From Pseudomonadota bacterium (GTDB taxonomy: Bacteria; Pseudomonadota; Gammaproteobacteria; Burkholderiales; Thiobacillaceae), in NCBI GenBank assembly GCA_021784115.1, contig JAJXTE010000008.1, positions 1 to 39,547 on the forward strand: DNA of 39,547 nt. The letters are read 5' to 3'. Shown here piece by piece: positions 2,437 through 33,213 of the stretch (the first letter of the stretch is position 1; each line of letters opens with the position of its first letter). The notes under the pieces are model-generated. The model was not told where the DNA came from. It saw only the letters and a list, made by a program, of their open reading frames with translations, and did no database searches. The position numbers and the translations under genes are program-made.

Positions 2437-3237
2437 ATGGCCGAAATGCCCATCACCTCGCGCGACAACCCGATCTTCAAGCGGCTGAAAAAGCTCGCCG
2501 AATCGGCACGCGCGCGGCGCGAATCCCGAATGTGCCTGCTCGATGGCGAGCACCTGCTCACGGCGTATGTGGAGGCTGGCGGCGAGCCGCATACGCTGGT
2601 GCGAGCAGCCTCGTTCGAGGGTTGGCGGATTGAACGCCTGACTGGGCGCACCCTGTGTGTCAAAAGCATCGTGTTGCCCGACGTCCTGTTCGCCGAACTG
2701 TCACCGGTCGCCACGCCCACCGGCGTGCTCGCCGAGGTCCCCTGGCTCACCCCGCCTGCCAGCCACGCCACGCCGCTCGTCATCGTGCTGGAAGACATCC
2801 AGGACCCCGGCAATCTCGGCGCCATGCTGCGCACCGGCGCGGCGGCGGGCGCCACGCTGGCCGTGCTGTCGAAAGGCTGCCATGACCCATGGTCGCCCAA
2901 GGCACTGCGCGGCGGGCAGGGCGCACAATTCGTGCTGCCGATGCAGCAGGGCGTCGATCTGGTGACGTGGCTGCAGGGTTTTTCCGGGACGAGCGTTGCG
3001 CTCGCGCTGGCCGAGGACGGCGACCTCTATGCGCTCGATCTTGACGGTCCGCTCGCCCTTGTCGCCGGCAACGAAGGAGCGGGCTTGTCGGCGCCGGTGT
3101 GCGGCGCCGCGACGCGGCGTGCGCAGATCCCGATGTCCGGCCGGATCGAGTCGTTGAATGCGTCGGCAGCCCTTGCGGTGGCGGTATTCGAGGCGGTGCG
3201 GCAGCGCCGGCGACAGCCCGGCCGGCGCCGATCCTAG
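2437..3237 (+). CDS. TrmH/SpoU-family RNA 2'-O-methyltransferase
   Basis: A 266-residue SAM-dependent RNA ribose methyltransferase of the SPOUT class. An N-terminal substrate-binding region (about 1-100, with SRDNPIFKRLKKLA) precedes the knotted catalytic domain. The three SpoU motifs are visible: motif 1 at 118-132 (LEDIQDPGNLGAMLRT), motif 2 at 208-217 (LVAGNEGAGL) and motif 3 at 238-246 (ESLNASAAL), with the motif-1 Arg and motif-3 Asn kept. This architecture resembles 23S rRNA 2'-O-methyltransferases of the RlmB/TsnR type, but the target nucleotide cannot be read from sequence. The C terminus is a basic tail ([12 protein letters not shown]). The ATG at 2437 or the one at 2446 could be the start. 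Its stop codon overlaps that of convergent ppsR inside a CCTAGG palindrome. Confidence 0.85.
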   Translation: MAEMPITSRDNPIFKRLKKLAESARARRESRMCLLDGEHLLTAYVEAGGEPHTLVRAASFEGWRIERLTGRTLCVKSIVLPDVLFAELSPVATPTGVLAEVPWLTPPASHATPLVIVLEDIQDPGNLGAMLRTGAAAGATLAVLSKGCHDPWSPKALRGGQGAQFVLPMQQGVDLVTWLQGFSGTSVALALAEDGDLYALDLDGPLALVAGNEGAGLSAPVCGAATRRAQIPMSGRIESLNASAALAVAVFEAVRQRRRQPGRRRS

Positions 3238-25597: not shown

Positions 25598-25612
25598 GCA
25601 TGGCACCGGTCG
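25588..25612 (+). promoter_or_regulatory. Hairpin presenting the diguanylate cyclase start codon in its loop
   Basis: CGACCGGT (25588-25595) and ACCGGTCG (25605-25612) are perfect 8-bp complements. The 9-nt loop 25596-25604 contains the ATG at 25600-25602. The leader peptide reads through the left arm, so translating ribosomes would melt the stem. Confidence 0.6.
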
Positions 25613-27126
25613 GGCGGATTGACGCCGGGGGGGGGCCATTGCGCAGGGGGCGACATCGCCTGCTGGGGCCGCTGGCCACCGGTCTGGGATACTACCTGGG
25701 CGCGGTGCTCGGGGTGGCGGCCTCGTCCATGTCCGAGGGCATCGCCATCTTCTGGCTGCCCAATGGCATCCTGCTGGCGGCGCTGTTGCTGGCGCCCCGG
25801 CGCGACTGGCCACCGTACCTGCTGGCGGCCGTGGCGGCGGAAATCGCCGCCGACCTGCCGACCTTCACCCTCGCGCAGGCGCTCGGCTTCGCCGCAGTCA
25901 ACCTGTTCGAATGCCTGCTGGCCGCCTGGCTGCTGCAGCGCGTCGCCCGCCCATTTACACTCGACCGGCTGCGCCATGTCGCCCTGTTCGGGCTGGTCCT
26001 GGTGCTCGCCAGCGGGCTGGCGGCCGTGCTCGGGGCGTCGATCTATTCGCTGAGCATCCCGACCACCACGTCGTTCTGGGACTTCTGGATCATCTGGTGG
26101 CTGGGCGACGCCATGGGCGTGCTGCTGGTCACGCCGCTCGTGCTGGGCTGGCTGCAGCAGGGCCCGTCCCGAGAACTCGAACGACGTCATTTCCTGGAAG
26201 CCGCAGCGCTAGTGGCACTGACGCTGCTGCTCACGATCTGGGTTTTTTCGCAGCTCGCTACCGACAGTTTCCCCAAAAGGCCGTTCCTGCTGTTTCCGCT
26301 GCCCCTGTGGGCGGCCGTCCGCTTCGGGGTGCGCGGCGCGGCCAGTGTCGCGCTGCTGATTGCCGCCATTGTCATCACCGCCACGCTGAACGACATGGGC
26401 CCCCTGCTGGCCGCTGCGCCGGCCGACACGGTATTGCTGCTGCAGGAATATCTGGCCGTGCTGGCATTCTCGTCCCTGGCGCTGGCTGCGCTGCTGCAGG
26501 AGCTGCGCGCGACCTACGACAAACTCGACCGCCTGAACCACGAACTCGAAGTGCGGGTCGAAGCCCGCACCCGTGAATTGCAGCAGGTTAACCAGCGGCT
26601 CGAGGAACTGGCTTCGGTTGACCCCCTGACCGGTGCCAGCAACCGGCGCCATTTTCTGGAACAGGCCAGGGCCGAGATCAGCCGCGCGAAGCGTCAGGGG
26701 CTGCCCTTGTCGGTGATCATGCTGGACATCGACTTCTTCAAGTCGATCAACGACCGCTATGGGCATGAGAGCGGCGACCAGGTGCTGGTTGCGTTGGCCG
26801 CCACCATCCATGCCACGCTGCGCGGCGGCGACATCTTTGCCCGCATGGGCGGCGAGGAATTCATCGTCATGCTGCCCGGTCAGGGGCTTCAGGAAGCCAT
26901 GCAGATGGCCGAGCGCCTGCGCCTGCTGATCGCGCAAAACGAGGTGCCGGGCTGTCCGGCCCGCATCACCGTCAGTGCCGGTGTCGCCGGTCTGGAGCAT
27001 GCGTCGGAAGACATTGTCGACCTGCTGCGGCGCGCCGACCGGGGGCTCTATCGGGCCAAGCACCAGGGCCGCAACCAGGTCTGTGCGGAACAGGGGCCGT
27101 CGCCGGACGCGCTGGCCGACGCCTAG
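25600..27126 (+). CDS. Membrane diguanylate cyclase, MASE1-GGDEF
   Basis: A 508-residue enzyme making c-di-GMP from two GTP at the inner membrane. Residues about 20-305 form a MASE1 sensor with some eight transmembrane helices (WLPNGILLAALLLAPRRDWP is typical). A coiled-coil linker (about 310-340, NHELEVRVEARTRELQQVNQRLEELA) leads to the GGDEF domain (about 343-498): DPLTGASNRR, MLDIDFFKSINDRYGHESGD, the active-site GGEEF at 417-421 and a product-inhibition I-site RGGD at 408-411, the normal five residues before it. It is therefore predicted active and feedback-inhibited. The ATG at 25600 has no properly spaced Shine-Dalgarno and lies in a hairpin loop. A nine-G tract fills codons 10-12, and TTG at 25639 just after it is an alternative start. 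Confidence 0.92.
   Translation: MAPVGRIDAGGGPLRRGRHRLLGPLATGLGYYLGAVLGVAASSMSEGIAIFWLPNGILLAALLLAPRRDWPPYLLAAVAAEIAADLPTFTLAQALGFAAVNLFECLLAAWLLQRVARPFTLDRLRHVALFGLVLVLASGLAAVLGASIYSLSIPTTTSFWDFWIIWWLGDAMGVLLVTPLVLGWLQQGPSRELERRHFLEAAALVALTLLLTIWVFSQLATDSFPKRPFLLFPLPLWAAVRFGVRGAASVALLIAAIVITATLNDMGPLLAAAPADTVLLLQEYLAVLAFSSLALAALLQELRATYDKLDRLNHELEVRVEARTRELQQVNQRLEELASVDPLTGASNRRHFLEQARAEISRAKRQGLPLSVIMLDIDFFKSINDRYGHESGDQVLVALAATIHATLRGGDIFARMGGEEFIVMLPGQGLQEAMQMAERLRLLIAQNEVPGCPARITVSAGVAGLEHASEDIVDLLRRADRGLYRAKHQGRNQVCAEQGPSPDALADA
25627..25635 (+). repeat. Nine-G homopolymer in the diguanylate cyclase N terminus
   Basis: Nine consecutive G occupy codons 10-12, before the first transmembrane helix. 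A gain or loss of one G would break the frame from the ATG at 25600. Confidence 0.85.
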
Positions 27127-27145: not shown

Positions 27146-27445
27146 TCAGCAGCAGCCGCTGCCCTCGTCGCGCTTGGGGCATCCCTCGGGCCGGTTGCGC
27201 GGCGGCAGCGGGCAGCGGTTGATTTCGTCCGCGCCGCGCTGGAAGTAGCAGGTCATGGCGCTGGACGCGATGCCCAGCAGCCAGAACACGAAGAAGCCGA
27301 TGGTGTAGGCGGCGATGCGCTGTTCGATCAGCGCCTCGCCGCGATACATGATCTGCAGCGGGTCGAACAGCGTGGTGAAGATGATGTCGGCCACCCCGGC
27401 AACGAGGAAGGACGGCCACAGAATGTGGATCAGGCGCTGCATCAT
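27146..27445 (-). CDS. Small membrane protein with cysteine-rich tail, last gene of the cbb3 operon
   Basis: A 99-residue protein of unknown function. Two transmembrane helices lie at about 9-30 (LWPSFLVAGVADIIFTTLF) and 46-66 (AYTIGFFVFWLLGIASSAM), with a charged loop between. The tail (69-99) carries C78, C89, C98 and C99, next to C66 at the membrane edge, and ends in Gly-Cys-Cys. Such a tail could bind metal. GAGGA is about 7 nt before the ATG at 27445; a second ATG follows at 27442. It lies 25 bp after the DUF3149-type gene and reads in the same direction as ccoNOQPG-fixH, so a role in oxidase assembly or copper handling is suggested by context alone. It is convergent with the diguanylate cyclase gene, with a 19-bp gap and no clear terminator. 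Confidence 0.72.
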   Translation of the reverse strand: MMQRLIHILWPSFLVAGVADIIFTTLFDPLQIMYRGEALIEQRIAAYTIGFFVFWLLGIASSAMTCYFQRGADEINRCPLPPRNRPEGCPKRDEGSGCC

Positions 27446-27621: not shown

Positions 27622-28134
27622 TTATTGAACGATGGGCTCGAATGACAGCGTGGCAGCCTGCGTGAATGGGGAATGCAGCACGCCGGCGAGACGCCAGGTG
27701 GACGCGGTGTCGACCAGCTGGGCATGCCACTTGCCATTGGGCATGGCGGGAAGCGCGGCGAGATAGCGGCCGCCGCCGGCAGCATTCAGCGTGAGGGTGT
27801 GGTCCATGCCCTGATGGGTCGGGTGCGCCAGGGTGAGGACCAATTGCCCGGGATAGGTCTTCAGGTGTCCGGCCAGCGTCAGCATGAGCGTGCCGTCCAC
27901 GCTCTTCAGCGTGGCGATGAGTCCCAGAGCGCGCGCGGCGTCGTCGCGCTCCAGCGTCTGGTTGATGGCGAGCCCTTCCTTGTAATAATCCCCGACCACC
28001 AGGCCGTCGGCCGTCTTGAAGGCAATCCATGCGGTGGTGAGGCCGGCGACGACCGCGGTGGCGGGCAGGCTCACGAGAAACCACGGCCACGGTTCGCGAT
28101 ACCAGGGCTTGGACTGCGTAGCGGGATGGATCAT
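27622..28134 (-). CDS. fixH: FixH-family cbb3 oxidase accessory protein
   Basis: A 170-residue membrane-anchored protein. The FixH pattern is KPWYREPWPWFLVSLPATAVVAG, a transmembrane helix at about 17-40, then DGLVVGDYYKEGLAINQTL and a periplasmic beta-domain (about 65-170) with LTLAHPTHQGMDHTLTL. FixH (also called CcoH) is needed for assembly or stability of cbb3 oxidase in other proteobacteria. AAAGGG lies about 10 nt before the ATG. The gene follows ccoG by 20 bp in the same operon. Confidence 0.88.
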   Translation of the reverse strand: MIHPATQSKPWYREPWPWFLVSLPATAVVAGLTTAWIAFKTADGLVVGDYYKEGLAINQTLERDDAARALGLIATLKSVDGTLMLTLAGHLKTYPGQLVLTLAHPTHQGMDHTLTLNAAGGGRYLAALPAMPNGKWHAQLVDTASTWRLAGVLHSPFTQAATLSFEPIVQ

Positions 28135-28154: not shown

Positions 28155-29576
28155 CTAGCGGTTGAAGAATTTGGTTGCGACGTCCTGCCTGATGCGCGGA
28201 TCGTCGGTGGTCTGCACGGTGAACGTGACGTCGATCGAACGGCCTTTCAGTTCTTCCGGATCCGCGATCAGGCTCACGGGAACGTCGATCGTCTGCAGGG
28301 GATCGGCCGCGATGTCGCGTGTGGCGGTCACCACCTGCAGGTCTTCGATCCCTTCCGCCTGGATGGTGTAGCGATGCGGGGCGCCGTCCTTGTTGATGAT
28401 CTGCAGCCGATAGACGTTCTCGATCATGCCCTCGTCGGTTTCCTTCGACAGCGCCACGCGGTCGCGCACCACGTCGACCCGCAGCGGCACGCGGGTGGCG
28501 AGGCTGTAGACGAAGGCAGCAGCGATCAGCGTCAGCAGCACGGTGTAGATGATGGTGCGCGGACGCAGGATGTGCCTGACGATGCCGGTGTCGGGGTATT
28601 TCCCCTTCACCACGTTTTCCGTGGTGTAGCGGATCAGTCCGCGCGGATAGCCCATCTTGTCCATGATCTGGTCGCAGCCGTCGATACAGGCGGCGCAGCC
28701 GATGCATTCGTATTGCAGACCGTTGCGGATGTCGATGCCGGTGGGGCAGACCTGCACGCAGACGTTGCAGTCGACGCAGGTGCCGAGGCCGGCCGCCTTG
28801 TAATCCGTCTTCTTGCTGCGCGGGCCGCGCGGTTCGCCGATGGAACTGTCGTAGGTCACGGTCAGCGTGTCCGAATCGAACATCACGCTCTGGAAGCGCG
28901 CATACGGGCACATGTACTTGCAGACCTGCTCGCGCATGAAGCCGGCGTTGCCCCAGGTGGCGAAGGCGTAGAACAGGATCCAGAAGGTTTCCCACGGACC
29001 GAGACTGGCACGGAGCGTTTCCGCGGCCAGCGTCTGGATCGGCGTGAAATAGCCGACGAAGGTGAAGCCGGTCCACAGCGCGATCGCGAACCACACGGCG
29101 TGCTTGAGCCCGCGCTTTCTCAGCTTGTTGGCGTTCCATGGCGACTGGTCGAGTTTCTTGCGCGCGACGTGGTCGCCCTCCAGCCAGTTTTCCACCCACA
29201 TGAAGATTTCGGTGTACACGGTCTGCGGGCAGGCGTAGCCGCACCACAGCCGGCCGGCCACCGCGGTGAACAGGAACAGCGACAGCGCCGACAGGATCAG
29301 GAGGCCGGTGAGGTAGATGAAATCCTGCGGCCAGAACACCAGCCCGAAGATGTAGAACTTGCGCGCGGCCAGGTCGAACAGCACCGCCTGGCGGTTGTCC
29401 CACTGCAGCCAGGGCAGGCCGTAGTAGAGCGTCTGGGTCAGCAGCACCAGCGCGATGCGCCAGTTGGCGAACACGCCATGCACCGCGCGCGGCTGGATCT
29501 TCTCCCGGATCGCGTAGAGCTGCTGCTCGGTTGCGGGGTCGGCGTGCTTGGGCGCAGGGGCGGGGTTAGGTTCCAT
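28155..29576 (-). CDS. ccoG: Cytochrome c oxidase accessory protein CcoG (FixG/RdxA)
   Basis: A 473-residue polyferredoxin-like membrane protein. Several transmembrane helices in the N-terminal half (VFANWRIALVLLTQTLYYGLPWL; FIYLTGLLILSALSLFLFTAVAGRLWCGYACPQTVYTEIF) precede two ferredoxin-type cysteine clusters near 265-305 (CVDCNVCVQVCPTGID and CIGCAACIDGC), then a C-terminal Ig-like domain (about 370-473). CcoG is a cupric reductase needed for copper delivery to cbb3 oxidase in other proteobacteria. I chose the ATG at 29576; the frame is open to 29693 through non-coding hairpins. It has no good Shine-Dalgarno and follows ccoP after 113 bp of structured sequence. Confidence 0.93.
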   Translation of the reverse strand: MEPNPAPAPKHADPATEQQLYAIREKIQPRAVHGVFANWRIALVLLTQTLYYGLPWLQWDNRQAVLFDLAARKFYIFGLVFWPQDFIYLTGLLILSALSLFLFTAVAGRLWCGYACPQTVYTEIFMWVENWLEGDHVARKKLDQSPWNANKLRKRGLKHAVWFAIALWTGFTFVGYFTPIQTLAAETLRASLGPWETFWILFYAFATWGNAGFMREQVCKYMCPYARFQSVMFDSDTLTVTYDSSIGEPRGPRSKKTDYKAAGLGTCVDCNVCVQVCPTGIDIRNGLQYECIGCAACIDGCDQIMDKMGYPRGLIRYTTENVVKGKYPDTGIVRHILRPRTIIYTVLLTLIAAAFVYSLATRVPLRVDVVRDRVALSKETDEGMIENVYRLQIINKDGAPHRYTIQAEGIEDLQVVTATRDIAADPLQTIDVPVSLIADPEELKGRSIDVTFTVQTTDDPRIRQDVATKFFNR

Positions 29577-29599
29577 GTGGCCGGATCGTGTGATTTTGA

Positions 29600-29647
29600 G
29601 GAATTGGCCTATCAGGCTGAAGCCGGACGGACGGATAGGGCAATTCC
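29600..29647 (-). promoter_or_regulatory. Long intercistronic hairpin between ccoP and ccoG
   Basis: The arms 29600-29612 and 29635-29647 pair over 13 positions with one mismatch, around a 22-nt loop. No T-run follows on the minus strand, so it is not an intrinsic terminator by the usual rule. It could stabilise the upstream oxidase mRNA. Confidence 0.55.
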
Positions 29648-29652
29648 CCACC

Positions 29653-29673
29653 GCATCCTGACTGGCCGGATGC
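29653..29673 (-). promoter_or_regulatory. Second hairpin just after ccoP
   Basis: GCATCC (29653-29658) and GGATGC (29668-29673) flank a 9-nt loop, 16 bp past the ccoP stop. With the longer hairpin it makes a tandem structure between ccoP and ccoG. Confidence 0.45.
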
Positions 29674-29689
29674 GGCAGGAAACAGAGGG

Positions 29690-30979
29690 TCAAATAATGC
29701 TGGCCTCCACCCGGCGCGCTTCGGCCGGTCCGCCTTCACCCGTCGTCACTTCGGGCTTGCGCAACTCGATCCGGTCTTCGGCAATTCCGGCCGCCGTCAA
29801 CGCGTCGCGAACGGCCTTGGCGCGGTTCTTGGCGAGCTCGGCGTTGGCTGCCGCGCTGCCGGTCGCATCATGGTAGCCGGAGATGGCGATGCGGGCGTCC
29901 GGATTGGCCTTGGCGAAATCGATGATGGGCTGCAGGGCCGCGGTCGCTTCGGCGCTCATCTCCGCCTTGCCGGTGTCAAAGTACATCTTGGCCGCCTGCG
30001 GCGAGGCGGGCGCAGCCGCTTCGGCAGCCGGCGCCGCCGGTGCAGGTTCTGCGGTGTTGGCCACTCCGCCCCCCAGCCCGTACACATACGCTGCCAGCAG
30101 ATGCAGCTTGGCGTCCTTGTTGGAGGTGGTGCCGAGCGTCTGGGTCAGGGCGGGCATGACGCCATTGCGGCCCTTGCTGATGGTCTCGATGATCGTCGCT
30201 TCGCTGCCGCCATACAGCCATACCTTGTCGGTGAGGTTGGGGGCGCCCAGCGCCTTCATGCCGGTGCCGTCAGGCATGTGGCAGGCGGCGCAGTTCTCGG
30301 CGAATACGGTCTTGCCCGCAGCGGCCAGCGTGGCGTCGTGCTTGCGGCCCGACAGCGACAGCACGTAGTTGGCCACCTGCCTGACCTTCTCGGCGCCGAG
30401 GACCTGGCCCCACGGCGGCATCACGCCGTTGCGGCCGTTGGTGATGGTGGCCACGATGGTGTCGGGGTCGCCGCCGTAGAGCCAGTCGCCGTCGGTGAGG
30501 TTGGGGAAGCCCTTGGCGCCCGTGGCATCGGAGCCGTGGCACTGCGAGCAGTAGGTCAGGAACAGGTGCTTGCCGATGGCGCGCGCGTTGGGGTCGGCGG
30601 CCACGGTGGCAATGTCCTGCTTCATGAAGCCGGCGTATACCGGCTGGAACTTGGCCTCGGCGGCTTTCACTTCGGCCTCGTACTCCCCTATGGACGTCCA
30701 TTTCAGCATCCCGGCGTAATTGCCGAGCCCCGGCCACAGCGCCAGGTAGCCGAGCGCGAAAATCATGGTGCCGTAGAACAGGCCCAGCCACCAGCGCGGC
30801 AACGGGTTGTTGAAATCCTGCAGGTCGCCGTCCCAGGTGTGCTCCATGAGTTCGGCCTTCTCGCCGGGCGCGAACTTGCGCGTGGTCTGCGACTTGAGAA
30901 ACACCCAGGTGCCCACGATGCTCGCCAGGGTGAGGACGCTGATGTAGATCGGCCAGAAGCCGCTGGTGAAATCACTCAT
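29690..30979 (-). CDS. ccoP: cbb3 oxidase diheme subunit CcoP with C-terminal OmpA-like domain
   Basis: A 429-residue fusion. Residues 1-300 are a normal CcoP: two transmembrane helices (about 8-28 and 66-84), two c-type heme domains with C144-C147-H148 (CSQCH) and C230-C233-H234 (CAACH), and axial Met candidates M187 and M275. After an Ala/Pro linker (about 305-330), residues 331-429 form an OmpA-C-like domain: KMYFDTGKAEMSAEA, ISGYHDATG with D371, and AELAKNRAKAV with R386. That Asp and Arg match the pair that grips diaminopimelate in peptidoglycan. Ordinary CcoP ends near residue 300. The domain would face the periplasm, so the oxidase could be tethered to the cell wall. AAGGAGA is a strong ribosome binding site, and the start overlaps the ccoQ stop by 4 bp. 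Confidence 0.93.
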   Translation of the reverse strand: MSDFTSGFWPIYISVLTLASIVGTWVFLKSQTTRKFAPGEKAELMEHTWDGDLQDFNNPLPRWWLGLFYGTMIFALGYLALWPGLGNYAGMLKWTSIGEYEAEVKAAEAKFQPVYAGFMKQDIATVAADPNARAIGKHLFLTYCSQCHGSDATGAKGFPNLTDGDWLYGGDPDTIVATITNGRNGVMPPWGQVLGAEKVRQVANYVLSLSGRKHDATLAAAGKTVFAENCAACHMPDGTGMKALGAPNLTDKVWLYGGSEATIIETISKGRNGVMPALTQTLGTTSNKDAKLHLLAAYVYGLGGGVANTAEPAPAAPAAEAAAPASPQAAKMYFDTGKAEMSAEATAALQPIIDFAKANPDARIAISGYHDATGSAAANAELAKNRAKAVRDALTAAGIAEDRIELRKPEVTTGEGGPAEARRVEASII

Positions 30980-31146
30980 TTCTTGTCTCCTTGTTGGGCG
31001 GGCGTGTCGTCGTCATCCTTGAAGGGCAGCTTGGCGTCCTCTTCGAAGCGCTGCTTGTTGCCCTTGCTGAATGCCCACCAGACGATGCCGATGAACACCA
31101 GGACGAAGACCGCCGTGATGATGCCGCTGATCGTTCCGCTGTCCAT
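30976..31146 (-). CDS. ccoQ: cbb3 oxidase small subunit CcoQ
   Basis: A 56-residue single-pass membrane protein: MDSGTISGIITAVFVLVFIG, transmembrane helix at about 6-26, the typical IVWWAFSKGNK, then an acidic tail (EEDAKLPFKDDDD). CcoQ/FixQ stabilises the oxidase complex. It starts 7 bp after the ccoO stop and overlaps ccoP by 4 bp (ATGA), which fixes both its frame and its end. Confidence 0.9.
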   Translation of the reverse strand: MDSGTISGIITAVFVLVFIGIVWWAFSKGNKQRFEEDAKLPFKDDDDTPAQQGDKK

Positions 31147-31153
31147 GCGGGTC

Positions 31154-31759
31154 TCAGTTCTTCGGGGCGTGGGTGCCCAGCACCTGCAGGTAGGCGATGA
31201 CGGCCTCGAGCTCGGTCTTGCCTGCCAGCGCGGCGGGCGCTTCGGCGATCTCCTGCTCGGTATAGCCGTGGCCGACGAGGTCCAGCGTGCGCATCTTGGC
31301 CTGGATGCCGGTGTCCTTGAGCGGGCGGTCGAGCCAGGGATAGGCGGGCATGTTGGATTCCGGCACCACGTCGCGCGGGTTCATCAGGTGCGCCACGTGC
31401 CAGGCATCCGAATAGCGGCCGCCGACGCGCGCCAGGTCGGGGCCGGTCCGCTTGGATCCCCACAGGAAGGGCCGGTCGTAGACATATTCGCCCGCCACCG
31501 AGTAATGGCCATAACGCTCGGTCTCGGCACGGAATGGCCGGATCATCTGCGAATGGCAGCCGACGCAGCCTTCGCGGATGTAGATGTCGCGCCCCATCAG
31601 TTGAAGCGCCGTATAGGGCTTGAGGCCCTCCACCGGCGTGGTGGTGGACGTCTGGAAGAACAGCGGGACGATCTGCACCAGCCCGCCGACGCTGACGATG
31701 AGGATGGTCAGCACGATCAGCAGACCGAGGTTCTTTTCAATGCTCTCATGCGAAATCAT
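31154..31759 (-). CDS. ccoO: cbb3 oxidase monoheme subunit CcoO
   Basis: A 201-residue membrane-anchored cytochrome c. The N-terminal helix (about 11-34, [21 protein letters not shown]) is followed by [21 protein letters not shown] and the heme site C65-C68-H69 (CVGCH), then [22 protein letters not shown], which is highly typical. The methionine in [13 protein letters not shown] is the likely axial ligand. CcoO passes electrons between CcoP and the catalytic subunit. GGAGA precedes the ATG, 11 bp after ccoN. Confidence 0.95.
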
Positions 31760-31770
31760 GGTCGGTCTCC

Positions 31771-33213
31771 TTAGGCGTGGACGGCTTGCGGGATGGCGGC
31801 GTCATTCACGACGCGGCCGGCGCGGACGGTCTGCCAGACGTTGAAGGCCATCATCAGCATGCCGGTCAGGAACAGCGTGCCGCCGGTCAGACGGATGCCG
31901 TAGAACGGGTACATGGTCTTGATCACCTGGGCGAAGCTGTAGGTCAGCGTGCCGTCGGCGTTCGCCGCGCGCCACATCAGGCCCTGCGCCACCCCCGCGA
32001 TCCACATCGAGGCAATGTACAGAACGACGCCGATGGTGGAGAGCCAGAAGTGCCATTCGATCAGCTTGGTGCTCCACATCGACTCGCGGCCGAACAGGCG
32101 CGGGATCAGGTAGTACATGGAGCCGATGGTGATCATCGCCACCCAGCCGAGCGCGCCGGAGTGCACGTGGCCGATGGTCCATTCGGTGTAGTGGCTCAAT
32201 GCGTTGACGGTCTTGATCGACATCATCGGGCCTTCGAAGGTCGACATGCCGTAGAACGATAGCGCGGTGACGAGAAACTTGAGGATGGGGTCGGTGCGAA
32301 GCTTATGCCAGGCGCCGGACAGGGTCATGATGCCGTTCATCATGCCGCCCCAGGATGGCGCCAGCAGCATCAGCGAGAACACCATGCCCAGGCTTTGCGC
32401 CCAGTCGGGCAGGGCGGTGTACTGCAGGTGGTGCGGGCCGGCCCACATGTAGATGAAGTTGAGCGACCAGAAGTGGACCACCGACAGGCGATACGAGTAG
32501 ATCGGGCGGCCGGCCTGCTTGGGAATGAAGTAGTACATCATGCCGAGGAAGGCGGTGGTGAGGAAGAAGCCCACTGCATTGTGGCCGTACCACCACTGCA
32601 CCATCGCGTCCTGCACCCCGGCGTAGGCGGAGTAGGACTTGTACCAGGCGCTCGTGCTGCCGCCGAGAATCCAGGGCAGCTCGGCGCTGTTGACGATGTG
32701 CAGCAGCGCGATCACCAGGATGTAGGCGCCGAAGAACCAGTTGGACACATAGATGTGCCTGGTCTTGCGCTTGACGATGGTACCGAAGAACACCAGCGCG
32801 TACGACACCCACACTACCGCGATCAGCAGGTCGATCGGCCATTCCAGCTCGGCATATTCCTTGGAACTGGTGATGCCCATCGGCAGCGTGACCGCCGCCA
32901 GCACGATCACCGTCATCCAGCCCCAGAAGGTGAACGCTGCAAGTTTCTCGGCCCATAGCCGCACCTGGCAGGTGCGCTGCACGATGTAGTAGGAGACGGC
33001 GAACATCGCCGAGCCGCCGAAGGCGAAGATAACCGCGTTGGTGTGCAACGGTCGGAGGCGTCCGTATGAAAGCCACTCGATGCCAAACGTCAGATCCGGC
33101 CAGATCAGTTGCGCGGCCAGGATGACCCCGACCAGCATCCCGACGATCCCCCACACCACCGTCATGATGGCGAACTGGCGGACGACCTTATAGTTGTAGG
33201 TTGTCGCTTCCAT
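31771..33213 (-). CDS. ccoN: cbb3 oxidase catalytic subunit CcoN
   Basis: A 480-residue heme-copper oxidase subunit with about 12 transmembrane helices, reducing oxygen to water with high affinity. The metal ligands are visible: H57 ([10 protein letters not shown]), H211 ([11 protein letters not shown]), the pair H261/H262 (AGPHHLQY) and H349/H351 ([11 protein letters not shown]). Y241 in the [11 protein letters not shown] helix is the candidate cross-linked tyrosine that replaces the one in aa3 oxidases. GGGAGA about 5 nt before the ATG decides the start. It is the first gene of the operon ccoN-O-Q-P-G-fixH and two small genes, read from the AT-rich promoter region at 33220-33322. Confidence 0.96.

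Follow-up and report, generated by a model that had tools for sequence, protein, structure and literature searches.

Ties between the outer membrane and the wall of Gram-negative bacteria are well known, whereas ties of the inner membrane are few and belong mostly to special machines such as flagellar stators. In MotB, a linker and an OmpA-like domain at the C-terminus hold an inner-membrane complex to peptidoglycan, and the peptidoglycan-binding domains of OmpA, Pal and OprF are usually tied to the outer membrane. CcoP, a subunit of cbb3 oxidase, is an inner-membrane protein whose haem domains and C-terminus lie on the periplasmic side. According to PMC5974059, Asp271 and Arg286 of A. baumannii OmpA are the residues that hold diaminopimelate. 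Extended forms of CcoP have also been described. Aspholm et al. 2010 (PMC2924362) derive the third haem of Neisseria CcoP from c5, fused by way of an Ala/Ser/Pro linker, and describe tri-haem CcoP as ‘completely distributed’ in that genus; their main text mentions neither OmpA nor peptidoglycan. In the R. capsulatus CcoP-cytochrome cy supercomplex (6xkx), the CcoP chain has a further C-terminal part, as judged from the molecule name.

The window analysed here, a stretch of 39,547 nucleotides from a sulfur bacterium, encodes a CcoP that is extended at its C-terminus by an OmpA-like domain. On the analyses set out below, this domain is fairly likely to be a non-covalent peptidoglycan anchor, which would make the oxidase a membrane-wall tether. 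The protein resembles MotB in joining a periplasmic OmpA-like domain through a linker to an inner-membrane protein (for CcoP by its known topology and by the model), but MotB belongs to a stator whose work needs the anchor, whereas the CcoP fusion has a respiratory oxidase as its base and a short-ended variant as its domain. With the C-terminal domains of OmpA, Pal and OprF it shares the fold and the Asp/Arg positions (PF00691), but its own domain is without the final stretch of the Pfam model. As in Neisseria tri-haem CcoP, an extra C-terminal module follows a diheme CcoP by way of an Ala/Ser/Pro-rich linker; there, however, the module is a c5-derived cytochrome c domain (PMC2924362), and the fusion CcoP carries an OmpA domain in that slot. 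The extension in 6xkx is of another kind, being an electron carrier instead of a wall-binding domain. No report of CcoP-, COX2-, PufC- or H+-PPase-OmpA fusions was found in the open-access PMC literature, to the extent of its available text; PMC8552683 was discarded as a prior report, as OmpA in its available text refers to a promoter.

Architecture of the fusion gene and its operon

The fusion gene lies in an intact operon, with ccoN, ccoO and ccoQ upstream and ccoG and fixH downstream, an arrangement that counts in favour of an anchoring role. The features are:

27622..28134, minus strand: fixH/ccoH (PF05751, E = 1.9e-39)
28155..29693, minus strand: ccoG, cbb3 accessory protein (TIGR02745, E = 2.7e-159, from residue 75 on)
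29690..30979, minus strand: ccoP-OmpA fusion gene, a single open frame of 429 amino acids plus stop
29693..29989, minus strand: OmpA-like domain (peptidoglycan-binding type), residues 331–429, by PF00691 and Foldseek; short C-terminal variant
29822..29824, minus strand: Arg386 codon, at the diaminopimelate-contact Arg position by alignment
29867..29869, minus strand: Asp371 codon, at the diaminopimelate-contact Asp position by alignment
29990..30070, minus strand: Ala/Pro-rich linker, residues 304–330, predicted to be disordered, with raised G+C
30071..30979, minus strand: CcoP core, residues 1–303, with N-terminal membrane helices and two haem c domains, by FixP_N, TIGR00782 and Foldseek
30976..31146, minus strand: ccoQ (FixQ; PF05545, E = 1.5e-12)
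31154..31759, minus strand: ccoO (PF02433, E = 9.8e-83; TIGR00781)
31771..33213, minus strand: ccoN (TIGR00780, E = 3.5e-226)

The longest ccoG frame opens with a TTG at 29693, and an ATG near 29576 is the likelier start. Beside the fixH end of the cluster is a 99-residue hydrophobic open reading frame (27146–27445, minus strand) with no Pfam match, and a MASE1-GGDEF diguanylate cyclase gene (25600–27126, plus strand) is convergent with the cco cluster.

Residues 1–303 are a normal diheme CcoP. Pfam places FixP_N at residues 42–88 and cytochrome c stretches at 134–206 and 219–284, and the ccoP model TIGR00782 matches residues 46–305 (E = 2e-88; 296.4 bits against a curated cut-off of 179.95). 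The protein has only two CxxCH haem motifs, at 144–148 and 230–234, and does not have the third C-terminal haem domain of tri-haem CcoP; C144, C147, H148, M187, C230, C233, H234 and M275 are invariant in a 20-row CcoP alignment. When the PDB was searched by sequence, the first part of the protein matched solved CcoP chains and the last part OmpA-like domains, and Foldseek matches of the core include 3mk7, 8smr and 8snh.

The first-pass annotation had read residues 331–429 as an OmpA-like domain fused in frame to CcoP behind an Ala/Pro linker, which the single 429-codon frame, Pfam, TIGR00782 and AlphaFold2 all bear out. PF00691 matches residues 333–406 at 61 bits, above its gathering cut-off of 27.2 (E = 1.5e-16). 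The match covers positions 1–76 of the 98 in the model rather than the whole model, and the domain ends in ..EARRVE, without the usual ..NRR.. end of OmpA domains; in this shortened variant the pocket could be altered, which counts against an anchoring role. The linker has a G+C content of 0.81, compared with 0.66 on both flanks.

An AlphaFold2 model of the full protein, run with 20 aligned rows (mean pLDDT 70.8, pTM 0.42), leaves linker residues 308–330 below a pLDDT of 50 and shows a separate folded domain from residue 331 on, with eight of its ten blocks at pLDDT 70–88 and two at 59. Foldseek returned five CcoP chains at the top for this model, followed by OmpA, Pal and OprF domains with a probability of 1.00 and E-values from 8e-6; 3td4, an A. 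baumannii OmpA-like domain with diaminopimelate, is among the matches with probability 1.00. Modelled alone from its single sequence, the domain was poor (pLDDT 63), a point against anchoring, and this model gave no Foldseek match below E = 0.001, the best weak matches still being OmpA-like and the MotB domain 5y40 ranking low. The predicted fold of the full-length model matches that of peptidoglycan-binding OmpA domains, the diaminopimelate-bound one included.

The fusion is confirmed as real. The source genome comprises 2.23 Mb in 155 contigs and is estimated to be 91.3% complete. A contig from a second public metagenome-assembled genome (L038; JAJXWP010000101.1, 3203 bp) spans the junction and is identical to the window at 3202 of 3203 bases, the sole difference, at position 29499, lying outside ccoP; the two may share related sampling and coverage is low, so that their agreement is support rather than proof. 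The frameshift between residues 300 and 331 that the first-pass annotation had allowed for was not seen, and is rejected on the open frame, the intact operon and the near-identical L038 assembly, which is also in frame. It is very improbable that an assembly chimera joined ccoP to an unrelated ompA-like gene: congeners without the domain would fit such an artefact, as would the draft state of both assemblies and the low coverage of L038 (2.2), but the ccoNOQP-ccoG-fixH operon around the domain is normal, the frame is open to either side of it, the two assemblies agree, and no other variant copy that could have supplied it was found in the genome, at 91.3% completeness.

Congeners and the source of the domain

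The core of the window’s CcoP is nested among Thiobacillus, in a seven-row group with T. thioparus DSM 505 (SH-aLRT 97). The nearest unfused congener, the CcoP of locus L039, has a core that is 93% identical and ends in ..GLSQKQ. The OmpA domain was not found in the loci read (L009–L037) from 29 of the 55 other genomes of the same genus. A tblastn search with the domain over 68 Thiobacillus-group loci (L009–L076), many of which are the same genomes in two collections and some of which are cut by contig ends (L076 within ccoP), gave a match only in L038, with the next at E = 0.77 and 2.8. Within the window’s lineage the fusion was found in two near-identical genomes only, a point against anchoring. 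The 67 other group loci in which the domain was not found indicate that it is dispensable for the oxidase, which also counts against anchoring.

These observations bear on whether the fusion is a recent, near-neutral event in one Thiobacillus lineage, without an effect that matters there. Its occurrence only in the window genome and one near-twin (68 loci, tblastn) and the 93% identity of the core to that of the nearest unfused congener would both be expected in that case. The frame, linker and conserved positions are intact, however, and similar fusions in Neisseriaceae are under purifying selection (see below), although this still allows neutrality in the Thiobacillus lineage itself. We regard near-neutrality as improbable.

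Some congeners have extensions of another kind. In a few (L065, L063 and L058), CcoP ends in an Ala/Pro tail of 12–32 residues with no domain. A decayed domain in congeners was considered and rejected on the tblastn search of the 68 loci; the short tails are scattered on the CcoP tree and not beside the window’s row, and we do not take them for remnants.

A donor within the same genome was also rejected. The source genome has seven OmpA domains, of which only that of CcoP is of the variant type, the six others covering model positions 2–98, and no other variant-type domain was found at 91.3% completeness. The genome’s own H+-PPase ends without an OmpA domain. A second diheme ccoP (C68:16671–17564; L002) is likewise without the domain and shares 47% identity over 41–307; the genome probably has two cbb3 isoforms.

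The variant domain across the order and on Neisseriaceae CcoP

The last 122 residues of the protein were searched against 399 genomes of the order, and close relatives were found, often in long frames. The best match had E ≤ 1e-16, at 40–64% identity, in 57 of the 398 other genomes. The relatives were sorted by script. The script labels of 118 variant rows (117 and one fragment) were 38 CcoP, 23 H+-PPase, 10 COX2, 8 PufC, 4 DUF937, 3 adaptors and one each of cytochrome c and ammonium transporter, with the other 30 in a catch-all class; this consists mostly of single-helix proteins and also contains the BON proteins, a DUF937-like protein and, at a contig edge, at least one H+-PPase fragment. 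Pfam analysis of ten representatives identified the hosts as H_PPase, COX2, ammonium transporter, FixP_N, CytoC_RC, HlyD, DUF937 and BON proteins, the remaining representatives being a cytochrome c protein and a single-helix protein with no other match. The OmpA match ends at model position 74–83 of 98 in nine of the ten and at 93 in the other, and in a 125-row tree the variants are split from eight canonical OmpA rows by a branch with an SH-aLRT of 100.

From these comparisons, the variant looks like a short-ended OmpA type that occurs mainly in Burkholderiales and is rare outside the order. A search of 274 genomes from the class, of which three belong to the order, gave one close match outside the order (L306, 44% identity), and among the four non-order matches opened, the more distant L308 (32% identity) has a similar short end. 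Among the matches listed for these 274 genomes, only the window’s own runs from CcoP through the OmpA part; the longest other among those listed (G810) reaches residue 366 through two stop codons, and the five long-frame matches that were opened have CcoP tails of 3–9 residues (L298–L301) or 28 residues (L302). Plasmid records gave no match to the domain at E ≤ 1e-8.

The domain is found at the C-terminus of H+-PPase, COX2, CcoP, PufC and the adaptors and at the N-terminus of the ammonium transporter. From known topologies, we take all six of these fused places to be in the periplasm; the periplasmic side is kept though the fused end switches, which fits the need of a wall-binding role.

Individual hosts show further detail. 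The ammonium transporter (L132:1435–3186) has its OmpA domain behind what appears by eye to be a signal peptide. PufC proteins with a C-terminal OmpA domain are encoded in L166, L167, L169, L172, L183, L195, L196 and L202 (Pfam-checked in L169), and RND-type periplasmic adaptors with a C-terminal variant domain in L170, L193 and L205 (Pfam-checked in L205); by eye, the PufC and adaptor fusions resemble lipoproteins. In the cytochrome c protein (L168:2116–3696) the OmpA domain lies between two haem c domains. Stand-alone single-helix copies had no neighbour common to all six loci whose open reading frames were read by eye, and three Neisseria single-helix loci share flanking genes with one another.

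The genus and family names of the compared genomes rest on named loci and on the word GCCGTCTGAA, which we take to be the DNA-uptake word and on which basis family f44 is equated with Neisseriaceae and group g55 with Neisseria; it has 115 copies in 192.6 kb of f44 loci compared with 4 in 1.01 Mb of other loci. CcoP was read in 66 of the 83 Neisseriaceae genomes searched (ccoP loci L155–L157, L214–L243 and L263–L297), and none was read in the other 17. An OmpA domain ends 37 of these 66 proteins, a third haem domain 18, and neither ends 11, among them the CcoP of L282, which lies at a contig end, and that of L281, which is broken into two frames; none of the 66 has both modules. In g55, a Neisseria-level group of 46 genomes, the corresponding numbers are 24, 18 and 4. 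Judged from these proteins, and given the wider sampling and GTDB genus limits, the third haem of Neisseria is one of two alternative CcoP modules. In L276, a short CcoP has a stop-riddled OmpA-like match just downstream.

The first-pass annotation had asked how far CcoP-OmpA fusions spread, and Neisseriaceae provide 37 distinct ones, all of which keep the D-x14-R spacing. Their linkers, measured in 30 of the 37 proteins, are 33–73 residues long, with a median aligned identity of 0.47 compared with 0.70 for the domain. Of the 435 pairs that can be formed from the 30 proteins whose core end was recognised, the first 400 were used for dN/dS, and 24 of these had a domain dS of 0.05–1. In 20 of these 24 close pairs the domain omega is 0.25 or lower; in the other four it is 0.46–0.59, which counts against anchoring. 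The OmpA domain on Neisseriaceae CcoP is under purifying selection.

The window’s domain groups with those of H+-PPase, BON proteins and the ammonium transporter and not with those of Neisseriaceae CcoP (SH-aLRT 92). A tree constrained to put all 38 CcoP domains in one clade was rejected (p-AU 0.027); the evidence is moderate, given 100 columns and a group chosen once the tree had been seen. That the window’s CcoP is nested among unfused congeners also points to a separate origin. We conclude, with moderate confidence, that the window’s fusion appears to have arisen separately within Thiobacillus, independently of that in Neisseriaceae.

A putative wall anchor and its hosts

D371 and R386, which the first-pass annotation had placed at the diaminopimelate-gripping positions, align with D and R in all eight canonical OmpA rows and are 15 residues apart, the same spacing as Asp271 and Arg286 in A. 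baumannii OmpA. The variant rows were gathered by similarity to the window’s domain, which favours conserved positions, so some of their conservation is built in, and many neighbouring positions vary; among them the Asp position is D in 115 of 117 and the Arg position R in 117 of 117, G368, G374, N379, A387, R422 and V424 show no variation either in the 117 variants or in the eight canonical rows, and P409 is invariant across the 117 variants. Loss of the Asp/Arg pair in homologues, an objection raised beforehand, was thus not seen, and the pair is also kept in the Neisseriaceae CcoP fusions (37/37).

The domain might keep the OmpA fold and bind a protein partner, of the outer membrane or the periplasm, in place of peptidoglycan. 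The shortened C-terminal end is consistent with this, as is the residue preceding the Asp, which varies in the variants (H in 52, T in 45, A in 15 and V in 5 of 117) and is T in 8/8 canonical rows, and YfiB-YfiR and Pal-TolB, OmpA-like domains solved with partners, are among the fold matches. Yet there is almost no change in the Asp/Arg pair or the rest of the canonical core over hosts that share no known partner, and we consider partner binding quite unlikely.

We infer instead that the domain binds peptidoglycan, that its hosts are abundant and that the cell benefits. On its flexible 27-residue Ala/Pro linker the OmpA-like domain would extend to the wall and there grip stem-peptide diaminopimelate with Asp371 and Arg386, in the manner of OmpA, Pal and MotB. 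The entire cbb3 oxidase would then connect the inner membrane with the wall, as a tether that may hold the two to each other or at a fixed spacing and restrain the complex laterally; the enzyme would serve as its plentiful membrane base.

Whether such an anchor serves the enzyme or the envelope can be judged from the range of hosts. It could confine the oxidase and other hosts to zones, or keep supercomplex partners together, the benefit being the efficiency of electron transfer. Several hosts are indeed redox or energy complexes (CcoP, COX2, PufC and H+-PPase), and on Neisseriaceae CcoP the domain occupies the slot of the third haem. The ammonium transporter, efflux adaptors, DUF937 proteins and single-helix proteins, however, have no evident redox role, so confinement of the respiratory chain cannot be the common function, and a benefit to the enzyme is possible but unlikely. 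The occurrence of the variant on several unrelated membrane complexes and on bare single-helix proteins makes the tether itself the most likely common function; the hosts share membrane embedding more than chemistry, which argues for the tether, and not the enzyme, as the common purpose. The function of the domain is probably not specific to the cbb3 oxidase.

More broadly, we propose, as an evenly balanced possibility, that Burkholderiales (in the GTDB sense, with Neisseriaceae) own a mobile, short-ended OmpA wall-anchor module that has been joined repeatedly to inner-membrane proteins that convert energy (H+-pyrophosphatase, the aa3 and cbb3 oxidases and the reaction-centre cytochrome) as well as to transporters; these enzymes would thereby double as tethers between the inner membrane and peptidoglycan. 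On CcoP the module would compete with the third haem for one slot, an electron branch being traded for a wall anchor.

The presence of the variant domain on several membrane energy machines suggests that the inner membrane may be tied to the wall in a way that has drawn little notice. If respiratory and proton-pumping enzymes in a large group of bacteria do carry wall anchors, the spacing between membrane and wall, the lateral mobility of respiratory complexes and the mechanics of the envelope would be coupled to the amount of respiratory enzyme made, and each such coupling would be testable by removing one domain.
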